Of a stretch of 21,585 nucleotides of DNA, positions 8,439 to 20,986 are shown in pieces. Within the stretch, counting starts at the first letter, position 1; the number at the start of each line of letters is the position of its first letter. The stretch lies in IMG/VR virus record IMGVR_UViG_3300020027_000034, positions 1-21,585 of that record. The stretch is one strand, 5' to 3'. This DNA comes from a virus. The notes under the pieces were generated by a model, which saw nothing but the letters and a program-made list of their open reading frames with translations, was not told the DNA's origin and made no database searches. The translations under genes were made by a program, and so were the position numbers.

Positions 8439-8918
8439 ATGGGCAGAGAAATCACCGAACGCATGGAAGACATCTACGAACTCCGACGCGTCAAACGCTG
8501 GTCTTTCACCCGTATCGGCAGGTCATATGGGATCACCAAACAGTCGGCGCGTGAGTCGTACCTGCGTGCGTTAGCCCACATACACGAACGCAACGGAGGT
8601 GAAGACCTTCCTGAGGGCGTGAGCATTGATGACATGTACCGCACTGAGGAGTTGGAGTACATCGAGGGTGTCCTTGAACGCTACATGCGCCTTGCTGACG
8701 ATAATGAGGCGAAGAAGCCCAGGACGGCCATAGAGGCGCTGAACGGTGCTCACAGGTACCTGGACTCCCTAATCAGGATTAAGGGCATCAACGCACCTCT
8801 GAAGGTGCAGCACACCATCACCAACGATGCGCTTGAGGCAGAGTTGTTGAAGATTAAATCTGAACTGCTCAATGTCATTGATGTTGATGCTGAAGATGTG
8901 AAGCAGATAGATGCCTAG
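8439..8918 (+). CDS. Terminase small subunit
   Basis: This 159-residue protein has an N-terminal helix-turn-helix (ELRRVKRWSFTRIGRSYGITKQSARESYLRAL) of the sigma-region-4-like type. A helical middle follows, with a C-terminal part HRYLDSLIRIKGINAPLKVQH typical of small terminase subunits, which recognise the packaging site and hand DNA to the large subunit. ATG 8439 is used; TTG 8433 in frame is possible. No ribosome site is seen, and CAGAAT lies 7 nt before the ATG, so a leaderless start is plausible. Its stop overlaps the large subunit start by 8 nt. Confidence 0.85.
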   Translation: MGREITERMEDIYELRRVKRWSFTRIGRSYGITKQSARESYLRALAHIHERNGGEDLPEGVSIDDMYRTEELEYIEGVLERYMRLADDNEAKKPRTAIEALNGAHRYLDSLIRIKGINAPLKVQHTITNDALEAELLKIKSELLNVIDVDAEDVKQIDA

Positions 8919-10305
8919 CCGCGCCGAGTTGGAGAAGCGCGCGTTCCTCATTGAACAGCTGCTGGAGGCTAGGCGCACTAAGGCTGCGATGGAGCAGGAT
9001 GGTTGGCATCGGTGGGTGAAACTCGCGCGCCCTAACCAGTTGCCTCCTGAGGGTGTGGCTTGGTCGGTGTGGATGGTTTTGGCTGGTCGCGGGTTCGGCA
9101 AGACCCGTGGTGGTGCGGAGTGGGCATGCCACAAAGCCATTTCGGAGCCGGGTACGTCAGGTGCTGTGGTCGCACCGGTGTGGAGGGACACGAAAGACGT
9201 CCCTATGGCAGCTATCGAAAAGGTCCTAACCGGTCAGTTTTACAAGATCGAAAAGTCAACGTTGGAGTACCGGTACAACAAGTCTGACCTGCACGTATAC
9301 CTTCCAAACAAGTCAGAAATCATCGGCTACAGCGCAGACAAACCAGACCGTATTCGTGGCGCTAACCTGTCATGGGCGTGGCTGGATGAGCTGGCCGCGT
9401 TTCAGAAAGCACAAGAGCTGTGGTATGAGGCCCTGTTGCCTGCGCTGCGTATCGGAGCGCACCCTGAACTACTCGTCACCACCACGCCGCGCCCAACACC
9501 ACTAATCAAGGAACTTGTGGCCCGCGACGACGGTTCCGTAATCGTGGTTCGGGGCTCCACCTTCGATAATGCGGCGAACCTGTCCCCAGCGGCTTTGAAA
9601 GAACTGAAACGCAGATATGAAGGAACACGCATAGGTAGGCAGGAACTGTACGGCGAACTACTCATGGACGCAGAGTTCTCCTTGTGGACCCGGGAACTAA
9701 TCGAAGCCGTGCAGTCCACGAAGCCTGTATCGCAGCTGATGCGCACCATCGTGTCTGTTGACCCTTCCGGGTCAGCGGGCGGTGACGCAACAGGCATTAT
9801 CACAGCTGGTATAGACCGCGCAGGCATTGTTTACATATTGGCCGACGATACTTGTAACGGAACACCCGATTACCGCTATAAACAGGTGTGTCATGCCGCT
9901 TCTCGGTCCGGGGCCGGGACGATCCTCTACGAGGGTGCATACGGCGGCGACAATGTGGCGCACGGTATCCGTCTGTCGTGGAAAGACCTCGCAGCGCGGG
10001 GAGAGGTGGAGGGGCCTCTTCCCTTGCTGAAGGTGAGTCCAACGAAGTCATCTAAGGCGGACCGTGCCCACCCCGTTGTTGCTCTGTATGAGCAGACCGC
10101 GAATGGTATTACGAAGATTGTGCATCCTGTTCCGTTGCCGGAGTTGGAGGACGAGTTGGTGCAGTGGGAGCCGACGTCTTCGTGGTCTCCGAACCATATG
10201 GATGCTCTTGTGCATGCTGTTCGGTTCCTTGCACCGCATATGGTGTCTTCGAGGCTCCAGTCGCCGTTGTCTCTTCCGGGTTTGCCGTCACTGCCTATAG
10301 GGTGA
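8911..10305 (+). CDS. terL: Terminase large subunit
   Basis: 464 residues with both terminase domains. The ATPase part has Walker A AGRGFGKT (58-65), Walker B WAWLDELAAF with D159 and E160, and the coupling motif VTTTP (189-193). The nuclease part begins at TIVSVDPSGS with D284, continues with ILYEGAYGGDN, and ends in PNHMDALVHAVRFL. It packages genomic DNA into preformed heads and cuts it. It overlaps the small subunit by 8 nt. Length and motif order are normal for the family, with no sign of an intein or truncation. Third-position usage shifts along the gene from A/C-leaning to G/T-leaning near 10000. Confidence 0.96.
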   Translation: MPSRAELEKRAFLIEQLLEARRTKAAMEQDGWHRWVKLARPNQLPPEGVAWSVWMVLAGRGFGKTRGGAEWACHKAISEPGTSGAVVAPVWRDTKDVPMAAIEKVLTGQFYKIEKSTLEYRYNKSDLHVYLPNKSEIIGYSADKPDRIRGANLSWAWLDELAAFQKAQELWYEALLPALRIGAHPELLVTTTPRPTPLIKELVARDDGSVIVVRGSTFDNAANLSPAALKELKRRYEGTRIGRQELYGELLMDAEFSLWTRELIEAVQSTKPVSQLMRTIVSVDPSGSAGGDATGIITAGIDRAGIVYILADDTCNGTPDYRYKQVCHAASRSGAGTILYEGAYGGDNVAHGIRLSWKDLAARGEVEGPLPLLKVSPTKSSKADRAHPVVALYEQTANGITKIVHPVPLPELEDELVQWEPTSSWSPNHMDALVHAVRFLAPHMVSSRLQSPLSLPGLPSLPIG

Positions 10306-10364
10306 TCCTTTTTTAGTCGCTTCACGTCCATCTGGGAACGTTTTCGCAGGTCAGAGGGGTTGTC

Positions 10365-10691
10365 ATGTCGTTTGGGGTAGCTGTTTTGGTGGTAGGTGTT
10401 GTGGCCCGGCTCACACGCCTGGTGGTGTTGGATGCTTTAACCGAGACGTTCATGGTCAAAACAATCAACCGTCTAGGAAGATGGCCGCGCTTCCAGGAAT
10501 GGTTCACTGATCTGGTCACATGCTCCTGGTGTACTTCAATGTGGATAGCCCCACCCGTCGCCGCAGCGGGATGGTACTGGGGACACAGTCCTTGGTTTGT
10601 GATCCCGGCCGTAGCATTGACCGCATCACACGCAATATCTGTTGTCGCACAATGGGCGGACCCCGGACGTCGAGGCTTTGCGCGTGACTAG
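10365..10691 (+). CDS. DUF1360-like membrane protein
   Basis: 108 residues starting at ATG 10365 behind GAGGGG. The pattern VARLTRLVVLDALTE...FTDLVTCSWCTSMWIA, followed by hydrophobic helices (FVIPAVALTASHAISVVA) fits the DUF1360 family: a conserved R-T-L-D helix and a C-x2-C next to W-A. DUF1360-like genes are often found next to or between terminase and portal in actinophages, as here. The role is unknown; two to three membrane segments and the CSWC pair are visible. It follows the large terminase after 59 nt and precedes the portal promoter. Confidence 0.8.
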   Translation: MSFGVAVLVVGVVARLTRLVVLDALTETFMVKTINRLGRWPRFQEWFTDLVTCSWCTSMWIAPPVAAAGWYWGHSPWFVIPAVALTASHAISVVAQWADPGRRGFARD

Positions 10692-10692
10692 C

Positions 10693-10722
10693 TTGACATT
10701 TGAGCGGTACAGTACGCATAGC
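10693..10722 (+). promoter_or_regulatory. Candidate promoter before the portal gene
   Basis: TTGACA (10693-10698) is followed after 18 bp by CATAGC, and TAGCTA overlaps it. The portal ATG is at 10740. The -35 box is perfect but the -10 is weak, and the site does not match the TATGGT family, so it may be a late or separate head-module promoter. Confidence 0.45.
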
Positions 10723-10739
10723 TAACGAATGGGGTGCAC

Positions 10740-12389
10740 ATGGCTTTGCTGGATGCGTTGCGCAAGAGGAAGCCTAAACCTCCTCGGATGCACTCTAATA
10801 CGACTCAGTATGCGTCGATTTCGTTGGCGTCTGCGTCGTTGTCTTCCCCTTTGGCCCAGGTTGCTGGGTCTGGTACGGGTTGGCAGAGGAAAGCGTGGGA
10901 GTTTTACGACGTTGTTCCTGAGATGCGCCTGGTTGTGTCGTATCGTGCATCAGCGTTGTCGAAGGTCAAGTTGCAGATAGCCCGGGTCACCCCTGACGGT
11001 CCCGAACTGATAACGGATGACCGGTCACAGTCCATGCTGGACACCCTGTTCGGCGGTGTGTCCAATCATGCGTCTTCGCTGTCCCGCTATGCGCAGCATC
11101 TGACAATCGCCGGCGAAACGTACACCTTTGTGATCAAAGGCGACGACGGTAAAGACGAATGGCTGATAGTTCCCGCTGACCAAGTCAACTTCAACCGCAA
11201 AACCTTGCGGTTCACGCACCCCATCAGCGGCGAAGACTTGTCATACAACATTGAGGACCTGTACAACTTCCGCCTATGGCAGCCCCACCCCCACAAATTT
11301 TGGGAAGCCGATTCGCCCACACGCGGCGGCATATCCGCTTTGGACAAAATTCAGGCCATCGACGCATCCATCAAAACCACAGCAATGTCACGGCTGGTCG
11401 GTGCCGGTATATATCCGATGCCGCTAGAAGCTAACCTGCCTGCCCCTACCGCCGACCAGCAGGGAATGTCACCTGAGGACGCGTTTCAGCAGTCGCTTCA
11501 CATGGCTGTAAGCCAGTCCATTTCTGACCCTAATGCTGCTTCCCGACACGTCCCGTATTTCATGTGGATGCCAGCTGAGGCTATCGCTGCGCTACCGGAT
11601 AAGGCGATCACGTTTTGGTCAGAGTTCGACGATAACGCTTCCGATTTGCGGGATACGGAGATACGCCGGTATGCAACCGGTCAGCCTCTTCCAACGGAAA
11701 TGGTTACTGGCATAGGGCAGGTTAACCACTGGACAGGCTGGCAGTTGTCTGAGGAAGACTTGAAGTTTGATATCGCCCCGCTCGCTCAGACGATGTGTGA
11801 TGCTCTCACCGTTCGCGTGGTTCATCCCGTTATGGGCACAGAATACATTGTTCAACCCGACTTCACGGACCTTGTAAGCCGCCCGGATCGTACACCTGAA
11901 GCGATTGAGCTACGTGCCGCTGGTGTGATCAGCTTGAACGAAACGCGTGAGGCGGCCGGATATGCGCATGTGGACGGCGGTGATGACATTGGTGCGATGG
12001 AACGTGACGACATCACAGACCCGGTGCGCATCGAATCGGAGCGTGCAGCCCCACCCCTGCTGGACCGCAGTGACGATCCTGCGCAGTTTGCTGTAGCGGA
12101 AATGCTGGCCCGGGACATTGTTTACACGGCCGGGCAGTGGCTATCTACCCACTCGGGCCGTTCGAATAGGGCCGCGCTGGAGAACGTCGCCGCGCTCGAA
12201 CGGCACGTCGAGTTTTCCGCTGATGCCACAGTGTTGACTGAGGCAGTATCGAGGACCAAACCCAAATATGAAGAAGTCGTTGCTAGCAAGTTGTTTGATT
12301 GTGTCGTTGGCTATGTGGGCCATATTTTTGCTGGTCGTGAACGCTATTCTTCGGATGGTTTAAAAGCGTGGGTGCGTAGTGGACATTGA
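10740..12389 (+). CDS. Portal protein
   Basis: A 549-residue protein downstream of terminase, with the HK97-type portal layout. The N-terminus has WQRKAWEFYDVVPEMRLVVSYRASALSKVKLQIARV, then GETYTFVIKGDDGKDEWLIVPADQV. A middle region holds the stem and wing helices (EEDLKFDIAPLAQTMCDALTVRVVHPVMG), and the C-terminal region is polar. Twelve copies form the DNA gate at the head vertex that binds terminase and later the tail. ATG 10740 is preferred to the in-frame GTG 10734. The gene overlaps the Mu F-like gene by 11 nt. Confidence 0.9.
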   Translation: MALLDALRKRKPKPPRMHSNTTQYASISLASASLSSPLAQVAGSGTGWQRKAWEFYDVVPEMRLVVSYRASALSKVKLQIARVTPDGPELITDDRSQSMLDTLFGGVSNHASSLSRYAQHLTIAGETYTFVIKGDDGKDEWLIVPADQVNFNRKTLRFTHPISGEDLSYNIEDLYNFRLWQPHPHKFWEADSPTRGGISALDKIQAIDASIKTTAMSRLVGAGIYPMPLEANLPAPTADQQGMSPEDAFQQSLHMAVSQSISDPNAASRHVPYFMWMPAEAIAALPDKAITFWSEFDDNASDLRDTEIRRYATGQPLPTEMVTGIGQVNHWTGWQLSEEDLKFDIAPLAQTMCDALTVRVVHPVMGTEYIVQPDFTDLVSRPDRTPEAIELRAAGVISLNETREAAGYAHVDGGDDIGAMERDDITDPVRIESERAAPPLLDRSDDPAQFAVAEMLARDIVYTAGQWLSTHSGRSNRAALENVAALERHVEFSADATVLTEAVSRTKPKYEEVVASKLFDCVVGYVGHIFAGRERYSSDGLKAWVRSGH

Positions 12390-13065
12390 TGAGGGTGAAG
12401 CCGCTGTCAGGTTGGCTGTCCAGCAGGCGTTTGATGAGTTCATTGCCCGCATCAAGGCAACGGTGTTCGCTGATCCGGGCAACCCGGATTGGCTTGTGTG
12501 GCCTTCGGATGCGTGGGCTGAGCTGGTTGCCCGGTTTGTGACTCCTGAAGCGCGCCGTGTGTTTGAGGAAACTTTGGTGGAGGCGGGGGTGGTTTCTCCT
12601 GCTCTGGTGGCGGGTGCTGCGGGCACGTTCGTTGGTCAGGACCTTGTGCCTGTTGTTGCGGCTACAACGATTCCTGATGAGACTCAGCAACGTTTGTATG
12701 ACGCGTTCATCGCCGGTGGGGTTGTTGCCGCTTTGGCGTTGCTGGTGGGTTCCGCTTCTTTGTGGGCGCCGATGCTGGGTGTGATGGCCCGCAATGGTGG
12801 TGCTGCCGCCGTGAACGCGGCCCAGTTTGATGCTGCCAGGGTGTTCTCTGACAGCGGACGCAGAAGGGTAGTGAAGACGTGGATCGCCCGAGAAGATGAG
12901 AGAACACGTCTAACCCACGCTGCTGTTGATAACACGACAGTTTTGGTGGACGATGTGTTCAATGTGGGTGGTTTCCCCCTCCGCTACCCTCATGACCCAT
13001 TCGGCCCGGTAGGCGAAACAGTTAATTGTCGGTGCAGTTTGAGGTTTGGAGAACAAAATGGCTGA
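12379..13065 (+). CDS. Mu F-like minor head (head morphogenesis) protein
   Basis: 228 residues from GTG 12379, which overlaps the portal stop by 11 nt; there is no ATG in a sensible place. The C-terminal third has the Mu F signature: KTWIAREDERTRLTHAAVDN, then a glycine/proline stretch GFPLRYPHDP, and the cysteine pair ETVNCRCSLRF. The N-terminal half is helical with a hydrophobic alanine-rich segment (AFIAGGVVAALALLVGSASLWAP). Mu F-like proteins join the portal during head assembly and may be ejected with DNA. Position between portal and protease is standard. Confidence 0.88.
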   Translation: MDIDEGEAAVRLAVQQAFDEFIARIKATVFADPGNPDWLVWPSDAWAELVARFVTPEARRVFEETLVEAGVVSPALVAGAAGTFVGQDLVPVVAATTIPDETQQRLYDAFIAGGVVAALALLVGSASLWAPMLGVMARNGGAAAVNAAQFDAARVFSDSGRRRVVKTWIAREDERTRLTHAAVDNTTVLVDDVFNVGGFPLRYPHDPFGPVGETVNCRCSLRFGEQNG

Positions 13066-13945
13066 AGTGCACTGGAGAGCGTTGATAGCTCCCCTAAATA
13101 CGCCTGACGCTGCTGGACGGAAAATCATGATGGGTAGTACAGCTAAGTTTCGGCCTTTGCCGATTCCTTTGCGGTACGCCCCAGCGGATTGGGGGGGTCA
13201 TGCTGGAGCAATATCCGTGGGAACTATCGACCGCGTCTGGTTGGATAGTGGTGCTCTTTGGGGTGAAGGCCGCTTTGATCTTTATGATCAGGCGGCGCGC
13301 GATGTTGTACGCAAGGTACAGAATGGTTTCGTTCGCCATGTTTCTGCTGATATTGAGCCTGGTACCAGCAAACTTATGGCCGCAACAATCGTTGATATCC
13401 CCGCTTTTGAAGACGCTGAAATCAAGTCGATCCATATCCCCGAGGCTGTAGTCGAGCCCGAGTTGGTGTCGTTTGCTTTTAGGGTTGTTGGTGATATGGA
13501 TTTGCCTTTTGCTGATCGTGGGCGGGAGTGGGATTCGGGGGCTGCGGTGGGGCGCGTGTTTGAATGGGCTGGTGGGGATGATTTGGACATCAACCGGTTC
13601 AGGCGCGCGTTCCTTTATCAGGATGAGGACGCTGATCCTGAGACGCGTGGCGCATACAAGTTGCCGTTCGCGGATGTTGTGGACGGGGAGTTGCGTGCTG
13701 TTCCTCGTGCGGTGTTTGCGGTGGCGGGGGGTCGTGGTGTTGATGCTGCGGACATCCCGGAGTCCGATAAGGAAACCATTAAGCGCAGGGTGAGTGCGTT
13801 GTATCGGCGGATGGCGAAGCAGTTTGATGATCCGTCGTTGGAGTCTCCGTTTGAGCGCCAGTCGATGGCTGGGGTTTCGGATGAGTTCGCTACTGCGAGG
13901 CGTCGGGTTCGGCGTGAGTTGGCTCTACTTGAAGGTGGTGTGTGA
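13058..13945 (+). CDS. Capsid maturation (prohead) protease with C-terminal extension
   Basis: A 295-residue protein from ATG 13058 (GGAG upstream, overlapping Mu F by 8 nt). The first 130 residues follow the HK97/herpes-type protease domain of actinophages: VHWRALIAPLNTPDAAGRK, PLPIPLRYAP, GGHAGAISVGTIDRVW with probable catalytic H48, and FVRHVSADIEP with probable S96. A C-terminal part (about 155-260) has RRAFLYQDEDADPE, AYKLPFADVVDGELRAVPRA and a helical IKRRVSALYRRMAKQFDDP. I have seen this domain fused to phage head proteases. The protease trims scaffold and capsid during maturation. No capsid gene follows it here, which is unusual. Confidence 0.85.
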   Translation: MAEVHWRALIAPLNTPDAAGRKIMMGSTAKFRPLPIPLRYAPADWGGHAGAISVGTIDRVWLDSGALWGEGRFDLYDQAARDVVRKVQNGFVRHVSADIEPGTSKLMAATIVDIPAFEDAEIKSIHIPEAVVEPELVSFAFRVVGDMDLPFADRGREWDSGAAVGRVFEWAGGDDLDINRFRRAFLYQDEDADPETRGAYKLPFADVVDGELRAVPRAVFAVAGGRGVDAADIPESDKETIKRRVSALYRRMAKQFDDPSLESPFERQSMAGVSDEFATARRRVRRELALLEGGV

Positions 13946-14157
13946 TGGCGTGTGGGTCGTGTGGTGGTGCGAGGGCTAGGACTGCGGTTGGTGCGGATGG
14001 TCAGCAGCGTCTTGTTTCTCCGCGTCGTACGAAGTATGTGTGGAATTGGGTTCCGTCTGGTGGGGGTGACGCTAAGGTGTTTGAGTCGGAGCGTGAGGCC
14101 CGTGATTGGTTGAAAGCTGGTAATCCGGGTTCTTTGATGGTTGGTCCTGCTGTTTAA
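13945..14157 (+). CDS. Small CxxC protein after the head protease
   Basis: 70 residues from ATG 13945, which overlaps the protease stop (TGATG). It begins MACGSCGGARAR (C3, C6), has a central YVWNWVPSGGGDAKVFESEREARDWL and ends GSLMVGPAV. Small proteins with an opening C-G-x-C-G, a Y-V-W strand and an EAR helix occur in many actinophage head regions; their function is not known to me. It is the last plus-strand gene of the head module, followed by a terminator. Confidence 0.72.
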   Translation: MACGSCGGARARTAVGADGQQRLVSPRRTKYVWNWVPSGGGDAKVFESEREARDWLKAGNPGSLMVGPAV

Positions 14158-14183
14158 TGGTGTTGGCGTTTCGCACCGCCGTT

Positions 14184-14218
14184 GAGCCCCCCTTTCTTCT
14201 CGTGGTTGAGGGGGGCTC
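14184..14218. terminator. Terminator closing the head module
   Basis: GAGCCCCCC (14184-14192) pairs with GGGGGGCTC (14210-14218) and is followed on the plus strand by TTCTTTTA. The hairpin lies between the plus-strand head module and the minus-strand tail-fibre-like gene and could also slow minus-strand transcription, though it lacks a T-run in that direction. Confidence 0.78.
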
Positions 14219-14223
14219 TTCTT

Positions 14224-15663
14224 TTATGCCTCTAGTGAGTATTCGATGCCGTCGAGCATGATGTAGGGCTGCGTATTCGCGGCTCCTAGCATTTGGATGT
14301 TGCCGTTTTTGCGGATGAGCATGCGTATGCCGCCACCGCTACCCATTGCGGTGAAGCCTCGGTCTTGTAGGGGTATAGCGGACACGGTTGCGGTTCCGAC
14401 GGTGATGCCGGTTGGCACTGTGGTGGCAATGATTTCGTCTGTGACACCACCCGTGGTGACGGAGTTGATTCGGCCTCTGAGGATGGCGCGTTTCCCGCCG
14501 GCGATGATCTGTACTTGTGGTGAGTTGGTGTTGTTGGTGCCGTCTGTGTTGGCGGTGAACTTACTGGCAGTTTGTGGCGAGTCGATGGTGATGGGTATCC
14601 ACAGCGATTCGTTGAGGTTGTTGGCGTAGAACACGCCTCCGCGTGAGCGGATTGAGGGAACTGTGGTATCTGCCGGGGCAAAGATTTGGATGCCGTCGTT
14701 GCCGCCTGCGTCTTGCTCGAAGAGTTTTAGGGCCACGTCTGAGTAGCCGAGGTTGGCGAGGGTAGGTACACGGACGCGTGGGCCGCCCCACTCGTTAGCC
14801 CACTTGGATGGGACGCCTTTGTAGTTCGTTGTTTCCTGGTTGGCGCTAGTGGTGGGGTTTACTGTCGCGGATTGGTTTATGACGATCGCAGTGGTGGTGT
14901 CGTTGGGAAGGGTCCATGTTGCAGTGTTGTTGAGCGCGACGGTGTTGCTGATGGTGGTTGCTGCGGAGAATGTTTTGGCGCCGGTGATCGTTTCTGTTCC
15001 GGCTAGGTGCACTACGGATGCGTCGTTGGCTTTGGCAGATAGTGAGGCTGTTAGTCCGATGACTTGAGCTTCGGTGTGGGTGTGCACTGTTGGTGCAGCG
15101 CCGACGTCTGCTGCTGTGAGTACTACTGCACCGGTGTCTCCGTTAACAGAGGTGACTGGTGGTGTGACGACAACGGAGTCGACATAGCTTTTCGACGCGG
15201 CGTCTCCTGGGTTTACGGGTAGCACGGGGATGACGGGTAGGGAGGTGAACGTTTTGATTCCAGCGACTGTTTCGTTTCCGGTGTTGTGGACAACGGCTGT
15301 GTCGTCTGCTGCTCCCACATCGGCGGCGTCTAGGACTACGACACCTGTTTGCCCGTTGACGGACTGCACGTCTCCTGGTGTTCCGCCTGTGCAGGTCACG
15401 GGGTCTAGTTGGTCAGCCGCGGCTATGTCTAGGTCATCGGGGAGGGGGCAGGTGTCTGGTCCTCCGTTGGTGAATCTGAGGGGCCCGTAGGTGCCGCATA
15501 GGGCTTTCTTGACGTGGAAGTGTTGTGTGATGTAGGTGGATACGAATATGTCTTGTGGGGTGGCCCAGCAGATGAGCCGTTGTGACATTTCGTCGAATAT
15601 GTCGTTTGTTGTGGGCCATATGCAGGCTGTGTCTGCTGGGACGCCTGGGTGTCGTCGTGCCAT
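14224..15663 (-). CDS. Tail-fibre-like minor tail protein
   Basis: 479 residues from ATG 15663 with GGAG 7 nt upstream. The N-terminal 90 residues form a distinct domain with several cysteines, probably the attachment part. Then come two repeats of SVNGxTGxVVLxAADVGAA (about 101-119 and 172-190), each followed later by VVHxxGxETxxGxKTF (124-139 and 217-232), a repeat type known from fibre proteins. Residues 240-479 are beta-rich and low in charge, a likely receptor-facing region. It is on the strand opposite the other structural genes and lies downstream of an early-type promoter. No chaperone gene is adjacent. Confidence 0.75.
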   Translation of the reverse strand: MARRHPGVPADTACIWPTTNDIFDEMSQRLICWATPQDIFVSTYITQHFHVKKALCGTYGPLRFTNGGPDTCPLPDDLDIAAADQLDPVTCTGGTPGDVQSVNGQTGVVVLDAADVGAADDTAVVHNTGNETVAGIKTFTSLPVIPVLPVNPGDAASKSYVDSVVVTPPVTSVNGDTGAVVLTAADVGAAPTVHTHTEAQVIGLTASLSAKANDASVVHLAGTETITGAKTFSAATTISNTVALNNTATWTLPNDTTTAIVINQSATVNPTTSANQETTNYKGVPSKWANEWGGPRVRVPTLANLGYSDVALKLFEQDAGGNDGIQIFAPADTTVPSIRSRGGVFYANNLNESLWIPITIDSPQTASKFTANTDGTNNTNSPQVQIIAGGKRAILRGRINSVTTGGVTDEIIATTVPTGITVGTATVSAIPLQDRGFTAMGSGGGIRMLIRKNGNIQMLGAANTQPYIMLDGIEYSLEA

Positions 15664-15872: not shown

Positions 15873-16040
15873 TTAGACGCTAAACCCTTTTGGAGGTAGG
15901 GCGCCGGCTAGACGTTGGGCTTTGTATCGCAGGTTTCTGGCGTTGATACAGCGTGGGCATGATGCTCCCGGGAGTGCTTCGTATGGCATTTGTTTGCCGC
16001 ATTCTCCGCAGGGGGGTGGGGTGGTGAGTTGGCGTCTCAT
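15873..16040 (-). CDS. Zinc-ribbon mini-protein, 55 residues
   Basis: ATG 16040 is chosen because AAGGA lies 6 nt upstream and the promoter -10 box is at 16072-16067; the longer GTG version would overlap the promoter. The product has two CxxC pairs (C11/C14 and C28/C31) in a classic small zinc ribbon, CGECGKQMPYEALPGASCPRC, which is followed by a basic helix NARNLRYKAQRLAG. Such proteins often bind DNA, RNA or a partner polymerase. It is the first gene of a minus-strand operon with the 49-residue protein and perhaps the tail-fibre-like gene. Confidence 0.75.
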   Translation of the reverse strand: MRRQLTTPPPCGECGKQMPYEALPGASCPRCINARNLRYKAQRLAGALPPKGFSV

Positions 16041-16066
16041 GGTGGGTCCTTCCTCGTGGTTCTTCC

Positions 16067-16095
16067 ACCATACCACCGCGACAACGGTGTGACAA
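16067..16095 (-). promoter_or_regulatory. Promoter of the zinc-ribbon/tail-fibre operon (family member)
   Basis: On the minus strand TTGTCA (16095-16090), 17 bp (CACCGTTGTCGCGGTGG), TATGGT (16072-16067). Spacing is identical to the other members and the spacer shares CCGTTG and CGGTGG with them. Confidence 0.78.
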
Positions 16096-16155
16096 CGGTG
16101 TTTGTGTGTCTTTATTGCTTACAGCCACGCGGCGACCAGGGGAAGGTGCCATAAA

Positions 16156-16188
16156 AAAATCCGCCCCCACGGGAGGAGGGCGGATTTT
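16156..16188 (-). terminator. Terminator of the small-gene operon
   Basis: An 11-bp stem, AAAATCCGCCC (16156-16166) with GGGCGGATTTT (16178-16188), is followed on the minus strand by a T-run that extends to TTTTTTTAT. It lies 10 nt after the stop at 16198 and ends the long minus-strand operon that starts at 18924. Confidence 0.88.
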
Positions 16189-16197
16189 GGAGGGGTG

Positions 16198-16542
16198 CTA
16201 CTTATGTTTCCTTATATGCACACCAGCCCACACTGGGGTAGATACAACTGTTATCCCGGTGATAAGGGTTTTACCGGCCGTGAACTTGATGTTTGGTGAC
16301 ACGTGGACGGGTTTCCCGGTCATGAGCCGCCCCAACAGGGCACCTTGGCTGGCTGTGCCACTAGCGATGATATGCGTTTCGAGGAGAGAAATGTTAGTTA
16401 TGACTCCGGCTGCCACCCCGTCGTTCCACACGGTGATAGGTAAATCGATCCAAGAGTTGTGCACATGCGAGTGGAGTATTTTGCCGTCTTTGGTGGGCTT
16501 GTCGAGGAGTGCTATGGTCCCGGCCCAGCCGAGTTCTTGCAT
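16198..16542 (-). CDS. Shortened relative of the head protease fold (likely inactive)
   Basis: 114 residues from ATG 16542 (AGGAG upstream). By eye it follows the N-terminal domain of the protease at 13058-13945: GWAGTIALLDKPTKDGK against HWRALIAPLNTPDAAGR; LPITVWND against LPIPLRYAP; AGVITNISLL against SVGTIDRVW; GKPVHVSPNIKF against GFVRHVSADIEP; and LITGITVVSTPVWAGVHI against the ATIVDIPAFEDAEI region. The putative catalytic serine is kept (S81), but the histidine of GGHAGA has no counterpart, so it is probably not a protease. It is the last gene of an early-type operon, not of the head module. Role unknown; a binding or regulatory domain is possible. Confidence 0.7.
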   Translation of the reverse strand: MQELGWAGTIALLDKPTKDGKILHSHVHNSWIDLPITVWNDGVAAGVITNISLLETHIIASGTASQGALLGRLMTGKPVHVSPNIKFTAGKTLITGITVVSTPVWAGVHIRKHK

Positions 16543-16557
16543 CAGGTGCTCCTAGGT

Positions 16558-16815
16558 TTATTTGGGGGTTGTGGTGAATTTCAGTAGCGCACCGCTGTGG
16601 GCCAGGGTGAGCTTGTAGGTGGCTCCCGTATCGGTGATCGTCGCGGCGACGTCTTTAATTAGCTGTGTTACGTCATCTTCGGGTGTGGCGGAGATGTCGA
16701 TGGTGAACCGCATTTGGGTTTCGGTGAGTACTTCTTCACTGTTTTTGAGGTGCGCGTAGTCGGCGAGTAGTTCGGAGTAGTCGGCTCGTAGTTGTTCGTA
16801 TGCGTGGGTTTCCAT
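16558..16815 (-). CDS. Small protein with N-terminal coiled coil
   Basis: 85 residues from ATG 16815 (AAGGA upstream). Residues about 4-35 form a tyrosine- and leucine-spaced helix (AYEQLRADYSELLADYAHL), probably a coiled coil. The remainder is a strand-rich domain (MRFTIDISATPEDD... ATYKLTLAHSGALLKFTTT). It lies between the 30-residue membrane peptide and the protease-like mini-protein, with 8-15 nt gaps. The beta part with an acidic ATPEDD turn suggests a small binding domain; no family was recognised. Confidence 0.7.
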   Translation of the reverse strand: METHAYEQLRADYSELLADYAHLKNSEEVLTETQMRFTIDISATPEDDVTQLIKDVAATITDTGATYKLTLAHSGALLKFTTTPK

Positions 16816-19481: not shown

Positions 19482-20012
19482 CTATTGAGATTCTTTCTCC
19501 AGCGTTGCCCTCATCAGCGCTTTCATCCGAGGTGAAGTCTCAGCTTTATTGGACGGAATGTTCGTCGACGGTGCGATACGTGGCGCGTCCCTAAAAATTC
19601 CACGCAACATCTCTGGGTTGAACTTGCGCTCTATCTGGGCCAGCTCCGTCGGCTTACCACCGTCAGCAAGGTGCCTGATGTGCTTCCTCTGGGCCTCAAT
19701 CGTCCTGATGGCATAGTCCCTATCCGTTTCCCCATCAATCTCCGCTAGGGGCACGAAGGACGACTCCCAGCCGTGGGAGCGCCGCTCCCTGATCTTCACC
19801 ACCTCGGAAGCGATGTCATTCGGGTTGATCCACCTGGCCCGATCTTCCTGGATACGACGACGGACGAGGGTTTTCAAAGCCTCAAGGCAATCAGCGAGGG
19901 CAAAATCCCCGACCACCATCTCCCACGCCTCGATCCCATATTCATCCATCGCAGACTTGGGTCCGGTTTGTCGTGCCACGTTCACGAATTGCACTAGTTG
20001 CTGCGGTTTCAT
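19482..20012 (-). CDS. Probable replicative helicase loader-like protein
   Basis: 176 residues from ATG 20012, which overlaps the upstream stop (ATGA). The pattern EAWEMVVGDFALADCLEALKTLVRRR...RARWINPNDIASEVVKIRERR matches a recurring actinophage domain (W-LGD-F-DA--A---H/R...I-P-DI) placed with replication genes and often compared with helicase loader N-terminal domains. The C-terminus is polar and less conserved, with FNPEMLRGIFRDAPR. It follows the winged-helix replication protein and ends before the structured gap. It probably acts in replisome assembly; the exact partner is unknown. Confidence 0.65.
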   Translation of the reverse strand: MKPQQLVQFVNVARQTGPKSAMDEYGIEAWEMVVGDFALADCLEALKTLVRRRIQEDRARWINPNDIASEVVKIRERRSHGWESSFVPLAEIDGETDRDYAIRTIEAQRKHIRHLADGGKPTELAQIERKFNPEMLRGIFRDAPRIAPSTNIPSNKAETSPRMKALMRATLEKESQ

Positions 20013-20986
20013 GAGACGCCGCCCATGGCGAGCATCCGGTCCCACAGGTTGGTGGGCAGGTTATCGGCCTCACGAGACGCTGCGCGCTCTAGATATCTTG
20101 CATAGTGTGCGTCGGTACCCAAATCGTTATTACGGCCCTTAGCGTGGCCCTGAGAGCCCTTCTCGGCCTGCTCTCGTTGGGCCACAAGCCTGAGCTGGTC
20201 ATATTTCTCACGCAGCTTAGGCATCGACAAGATGTTGGCTTTCCAAAACTCGTGATTCTGGCACCACAAGATCGCTGCCTGAACACGAACCACATCACGA
20301 CCATCACGATCAATCATGAGGCGAGCTGCATCACGCCACTTGTCGCTGATGTTTGGTCTTTTGCTTCCGTTGGCTTCGATGCGGTCAGCTAGCAGTGTGC
20401 AGAGAGACTCCACATCGTCTCTTCTGGGCACCAGGTCGGTAGAGCGCGAAGCGATCTCCGACGTAGAAGAAGACGAAGTCTTCTTCTTAAGGTTTGTATC
20501 TAGCTGATCTACTCCCTTATACCCGGCAGCAGCTTGCCGGTGGTGTGACGCTGGTTCGCCGCCGGCAAGATCTGCCGGTGGTGGATTCTGCCGGTGGTAT
20601 CCCTCCGGTTCCTCTTCCTTTTCGACTACCAGAGGCGGCCATTCCTTGGTGGCTGAGGTGTCTTCTACGGTAGGAAATTGGTGAACTGAGCCGTCTACCT
20701 TCACGGGAACGCGGTACCAGTCAGAGGTGCGCACACCGCCGTGACGGAACCGCATCTTCTTCTGTAGTAGTCCACGCTCGACGAGTCCTCGGATGTGGTC
20801 TCGGGCGGATCGGAGACTCATCTCAGCTTCTTCGGCGATGATCTCTTGTCCTGGATACCCGGATAGGAAGCCGTCGGCTTCGTCTTCGTGGGGGGCCATG
20901 TAGTTAGCGATCATCATGAGGACGGCTTTTGCCGCTGGGGAGCCTGTTTTGACTTTGCAGGCCCAGGCTGTGGCTTGGAAACTCAT
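20009..20986 (-). CDS. Winged-helix replication initiation protein (DnaD-like)
   Basis: 325 residues from ATG 20986 with AGAAGG upstream; a 32-residue longer frame is possible but less like the family. The first 100 residues are a winged helix (MSFQATAWACKVKTGSPAAK, EIIAEEAEMSLRSARDHIRGLVERGLL, RTSDWYRVPV). A low-complexity linker rich in proline, alanine, serine and lysine follows (KKKTSSSST). A C-terminal domain has PNISDKWRDAARLMIDRDGR, WCQNHEFWKANILSMPKLREKYDQLRL. The latter is typical of phage replication initiators. It likely binds the origin, possibly within or beside its own gene. Confidence 0.78.
   Translation of the reverse strand: MSFQATAWACKVKTGSPAAKAVLMMIANYMAPHEDEADGFLSGYPGQEIIAEEAEMSLRSARDHIRGLVERGLLQKKMRFRHGGVRTSDWYRVPVKVDGSVHQFPTVEDTSATKEWPPLVVEKEEEPEGYHRQNPPPADLAGGEPASHHRQAAAGYKGVDQLDTNLKKKTSSSSTSEIASRSTDLVPRRDDVESLCTLLADRIEANGSKRPNISDKWRDAARLMIDRDGRDVVRVQAAILWCQNHEFWKANILSMPKLREKYDQLRLVAQREQAEKGSQGHAKGRNNDLGTDAHYARYLERAASREADNLPTNLWDRMLAMGGVS

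Follow-up and report, generated by a model that had tools for sequence, protein, structure and literature searches.

The window analysed here is an entire IMG/VR record of 21,585 bases, classed as virus. At 8911-13945 its plus strand encodes a terminase and a portal protein, followed by a MuF-like protein and the protease (295 aa), and the 114-aa protein under study, P0001, is encoded on the minus strand.

10734..12389, plus strand: portal protein (phrog_776, E=8.8e-90)
12379..13065, plus strand: MuF-like head morphogenesis protein, the upstream neighbour of the protease (PHROG matches)
13058..13945, plus strand: capsid maturation protease, 295 aa; catalytic domain in residues 1-125, with H48, S96 and D98
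16155..16188, minus strand: intrinsic terminator, AAATCCGCCC...GGGCGGATTTTTTT, a stem-loop and T-run right after the P0001 stop
16198..16542, minus strand: P0001, a stand-alone protease-domain protein of 114 aa, almost certainly dead (ORF bounds exact, 16542-16198)
16549..16553, minus strand: Shine-Dalgarno sequence AGGAG, 6 nt 5′ of the P0001 ATG (direct reading)
16558..16815, minus strand: 85-aa operon gene upstream of P0001, with no assigned function
20009..20986, minus strand: replication initiator, upstream of P0001 on the same strand (phrog_391, E=2.4e-35)

A minus-strand run of genes leads from near the replication initiator (20009-20986 and up) via small genes to P0001, the final gene before the terminator; a similar terminator lies downstream of the small copy in the sister phage L015. 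The earlier note had placed P0001 at the end of a minus-strand operon of small genes, far from the head module, and both statements hold: the gene sits in a replication/accessory operon, not near portal and capsid genes, and the small copies of its relatives lie in the right, non-structural arm of the genome. From gene position only, we infer that the operon is early. The 85-aa operon gene is 89% identical in L015 yet does not adjoin the small copy there, and a two-gene module of P0001 and this gene was therefore dropped. Just downstream of the small copy, a Cys-rich (zinc-ribbon-like) mini-protein is encoded on the minus strand in the window (15880-16041), L015 (12415-12582) and L017 (5578-5745); its C-terminal tail, QRLAGxxPPKGxSV, is almost invariant, while the remainder is only ~31% identical between the window and L015. 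On the other side, the interval 13942-15663 holds a 71-aa gene after the protease and then a tail-fibre-like gene on the opposite strand. No capsid gene was identified beside the protease in this interval, and L015 and L016 have the same gene order.

Relationship of P0001 to the capsid protease domain

The earlier note had aligned P0001 by eye with the N-terminal domain of the window protease. BLASTP aligned the same motif pair (GKPVHVSPNIKF / GFVRHVSADIEP), but at 22% identity and E=1.2, which is not significant, this likeness is no evidence by itself. P0001 had no match in Pfam, PHROG or NCBIfam, Peptidase_S78 (PF04586) included; against the latter model the window's real protease domain scores 12.6 bits, with a curated cut-off of 21. 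The pairwise E-value and the libraries without a match are what could favour a chance resemblance between unrelated folds, a reading that we give practically no weight, since all profile, structure and reciprocal tests go against it.

The profile comparisons were significant. When the single P0001 sequence was compared by hhalign with A5, a profile of eight real protease domains, the match had P=91.9 and E=6.9e-7 over 111 columns (111/114 residues), whereas all 47 controls in the same test (17 other phage proteins and 30 shuffles) stayed at or below 6.3%; the two sister copies and the second copy of L017 reached 91-97%. Profiles of small copies matched the proteases with P=97.5 when three copies were used and P=99.1 with twelve, and in the reverse search a profile from ten small proteins picked out the real protease in each of five sister contigs. 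In hmmsearch, P0001 scored 19.3 bits, the highest-scoring of 20,000 shuffles 10.0 bits, and among 190 window frames the shuffles were outranked only by the protease and P0001. All 12 small copies also outranked the 20,000 shuffles, these relatives having been collected partly via the same similarity; six-frame whole-genome searches are the wider test, and in these the protease profile gave exactly two matches at E<=1 in each of nine Microbacterium phages, one to the intact protease, at E 1e-29 to 1e-51, and one to a small gene, at E 4e-9 to 2e-4. Profile searching had been named beforehand as a refuting check, and it placed P0001 with the proteases, not in an unrelated fold. A scan of viral contigs with P0001 alone and scans of genome contigs with two alignments found none; one match from a plasmid search and one to a tail assembly protein of Pseudomonas MP22 (E=8) were taken as chance.

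The AlphaFold (AF2) model of P0001 was built from an alignment of small copies only, with no protease included, and had a pLDDT of 89.7 and a pTM of 0.82. Foldseek against the PDB ranked herpesvirus proteases first (PRV, E=3.8e-4; EBV, E=6.0e-4; probability 1.00), and the lower-ranked matches included MCE-domain barrels at clearly lower TM. Against viral models there were 83 matches at E<=0.001, headed by small copies and prohead proteases; the top matches comprised the small proteins of Cressida and Tyrumbra together with MuF-type proteins and prohead proteases. The model of the window protease itself was weaker (pLDDT 64, six-sequence alignment), but herpes proteases also came first, with weaker E-values, and the order of strands and helices was that of the P0001 model. 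A sequence-profile search of the PDB gave nothing credible. P0001 is predicted to have the assemblin/prohead protease fold, in agreement with the earlier note, so that fold comparison, like the profile searches, places it with the proteases. The note's term "truncated", however, is misleading: P0001 corresponds to the full core domain, the real catalytic domain itself having only ~125 residues, and the parts missing are the C-terminal 170 residues of the protease, a His-bearing loop of ~9 residues and part of one helix. A similar predicted fold was seen for BFVD entries A0A6M9YZZ5 (Vibrio phage River4, 122 aa) and A0A2C9CXB2 (Yersinia phage fHe-Yen9-04, 144 aa), uncharacterised proteins that are possible further stand-alone protease-fold proteins in unrelated phages.

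Active site, distribution and phylogeny of the small copies

The active sites were compared in an alignment of 18 small copies with 19 proteases, numbered after the window protease (His48, Ser96, Asp98). We regard these residues as catalytic on account of their invariance in the proteases and because His48 and Ser96 fit the layout of known prohead proteases; Asp98 would be the third catalytic residue. The complete His-Ser-Asp set was present in 19/19 proteases and 0/18 small copies. P0001 retains the Ser (S82), has Asn at the Asp position (N84) and has lost the His loop by a deletion around W39-N-D-G42, so that the His of GGHAGA is indeed missing, as had been noticed at the outset. Residues are lost differently by copy, and the conserved trait is therefore not activity; the positions conserved in the small copies are fold-core residues. 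P0001 is almost certainly homologous to the domain of the capsid-maturation protease and dead as an enzyme.

An active peptidase with an altered active site, using another base or sites split across two copies, is very unlikely. The window, L015 and seven EC-like copies have a Ser where the nucleophile is expected (in the EC-like copies the only one of the three residues retained), L015 has a His near the deletion and close to the expected place, and two phage records name their small dead copies 'peptidase' (Onika gp73, PP978806; Nicole72 gp81, OR159674). Against this, the nucleophile is replaced by Asp in the L017 orthologue from the window's own group, by Ala in the EI and Hendrix copies and by Gly in Leaf, and conservation falls on the fold core. 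Because the Ser is kept in these copies and L015 has its nearby His, weak activity of some copies is a remote possibility. A further small dead copy, MementoMori gp72 (NC_047987), bears the RefSeq name 'portal protein', which probably derives from PHROG 859, a family of that name that includes the protease domain.

The two sister phages L015 and L017 each have the small copy together with an intact protease. An unannotated relative of 120-150 aa lies in the non-structural arm in more than 40 Microbacterium phage records; as duplicates from RefSeq and many closely related isolates of the EC cluster are counted here, these records amount to only about five or six lineages. Between these phages and the window's group, the small copy is the sole meaningful-looking common gene among the matches listed. 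The intact protease is also present in 11/11 near-complete genomes searched (nine Microbacterium phages and two IMG/VR phages). In SilentRX and Obutu the protease was found without the small copy, so not every such phage needs the partner.

The tree is rough, with long branches; 17 small copies were separated (93/90) from the proteases, with L017:11009-11371 as the exception, and a single clade for all small copies is not rejected (p=0.37). That no small copy of the main group is nearest to the protease of its own genome is better explained by an old split with later exchange than by a series of recent duplications; the extra copy of L017 would be an exception to this scheme. That copy (L017:11009-11371, plus strand), a second small protease-like protein in L017, is divergent from the replication gene and has kept the His, the Asp and the PAF motif, with only the Ser lost (to Gly). 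Because it groups with the real proteases and keeps the PAF motif, the stand-alone copy was probably inactivated independently twice.

Selection, proposed role and precedents

P0001 and the L015 copy are 73% identical, with dN 0.18, dS ~2.0 (near saturation) and dN/dS ~0.09, and the other pairs of small copies have dN/dS of 0.11-0.56; in the same genome pair, dS is 0.28-0.43 for the protease and the 85-aa operon gene. Judged from these rates, the P0001 gene is constrained and was replaced through recombination with a diverged version. The small copy and the Cys-rich gene (15883-16542) show a synonymous divergence from L015 far above that of the 85-aa gene or the protease, which points to a recombination block. 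A functionless duplicate in decay, as the lost catalytic residues and the high divergence might suggest, is most unlikely given dN/dS of 0.09-0.56 over pairs with a third-position excess, an intact frame, ribosome site and terminator, and retention in more than 40 phage records from several lineages.

The reading that we put forward, with a probability of about 0.45 for the whole explanation, is that P0001 is a pseudoprotease kept by selection that acts as a binding partner or regulator. P0001, encoded in a non-structural operon as an inactive paralogue of the protease domain of the same phage, would pair with the real protease domain or occupy the protease's sites on scaffold or capsid, and proteolysis would thereby be held back until procapsids assemble. 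This mechanism, in which we infer the binding itself, is tentative; a binding role is favoured because the two genes always co-occur where tested and the dead copy seemingly arose twice. Herpesvirus assemblins (PRV pUL26N, 4v07; EBV, 1o6e; HCMV) are the best structural matches of the P0001 model (TM ~0.7 over the query), but they are active Ser-His-His enzymes of ~220 residues with dimer helices and ~10% identity to P0001. The dimer interface of herpes proteases is formed by C-terminal helices, and the geometry would differ in P0001 because these helices are missing. The related herpesvirus proteases are active solely as dimers (PMC12632753), and since they need dimerisation, a dead homologue could plausibly disturb activation. 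That tailed phages widely and repeatedly convert a protease-domain copy into a stand-alone dead antagonist, which lies away from the head genes and times capsid proteolysis through binding to the protease or its substrates, with at least two independent inactivations, is doubtful as a broader claim.

Alternatively, the domain, of which only the fold would be inherited, may now serve a purpose directed at the host and unrelated to capsids, for instance the inhibition of a host enzyme or defence protein. Such a role is nearly as likely as binding to the protease or its substrates, because of the operon position and the exchange between lineages. The gene lies in a non-structural operon next to replication genes and small, fast-changing accessory genes; it diverges quickly and is swapped between lineages in a mosaic manner (dS ~2 against 0.3-0.4 for other genes), and each lineage has its own remodelling of the active-site loop and helix. 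However, a freely travelling host-directed gene would not be expected to be accompanied, in all genomes checked, by an intact protease of the same subfamily, and PADLOC models gave no match, which weighs little since these models describe defence and not counter-defence.

The suggestion that a dead protease-domain protein would give the fold a new role leaves out a published precedent from giant phages, whose 'cryptic protease' is a diverged, presumably inactive prohead-protease paralogue (SPN3US gp117, 201phi2-1 gp206 and PhiPA3 gp143) that was called unprecedented at that time (PMC5694885). P0001 falls under the same definition, being a second diverged paralogue of the phage's protease without the catalytic residues (PMC5694885). 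The cryptic proteases are likewise small (145 aa in 201phi2-1, 136 aa in PhiPA3), and the His of gp117 is unaligned; unlike P0001, however, the cryptic protease belongs to another family (phiKZ type, MEROPS S80), and gp117 retains Ser and Asp. No sequence relation was detected between the single sequence of 201phi2-1 gp206 and either alignment A2 (P=0.4) or A5 (P=0.6).

Closer relatives are the MuF-associated actinophage proteases (SilentRX gp19, Leaf gp58, Obutu gp12; PHROG 859/21470), which are homologous along the whole length of P0001 and share its predicted order of strands and helices; P0001, in contrast, is a stand-alone gene without the full His-Ser-Asp set, their other regions or their head-module location. 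The small Microbacterium hypothetical proteins (Matzah gp72, Tyrumbra gp72, Ariadne gp83, Megan gp76, Hendrix gp133, Leaf gp133 and Onika gp73) share with P0001 its size, non-structural location, dead site, tree group and an intact protease in the genome, but are only 16-28% identical to it. The passages searched in a survey of Microbacterium phage cluster genomes do not mention a second protease-like gene (PMC7302621), and no pseudoenzyme timing of capsid maturation in tailed phages is described in the literature searched.

What is new here is the actinophage family, its breadth and the probable second independent inactivation, the concept being already known from giant phages. Restraint of the protease by the dead copy would amount to an internal pseudoenzyme control of the timing of capsid maturation; a host-directed copy would mean that a structural-module domain has been recruited as an effector. 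Either way, more than 40 records named hypothetical, 'peptidase' or 'portal' receive one identity, with the last two names called into question.
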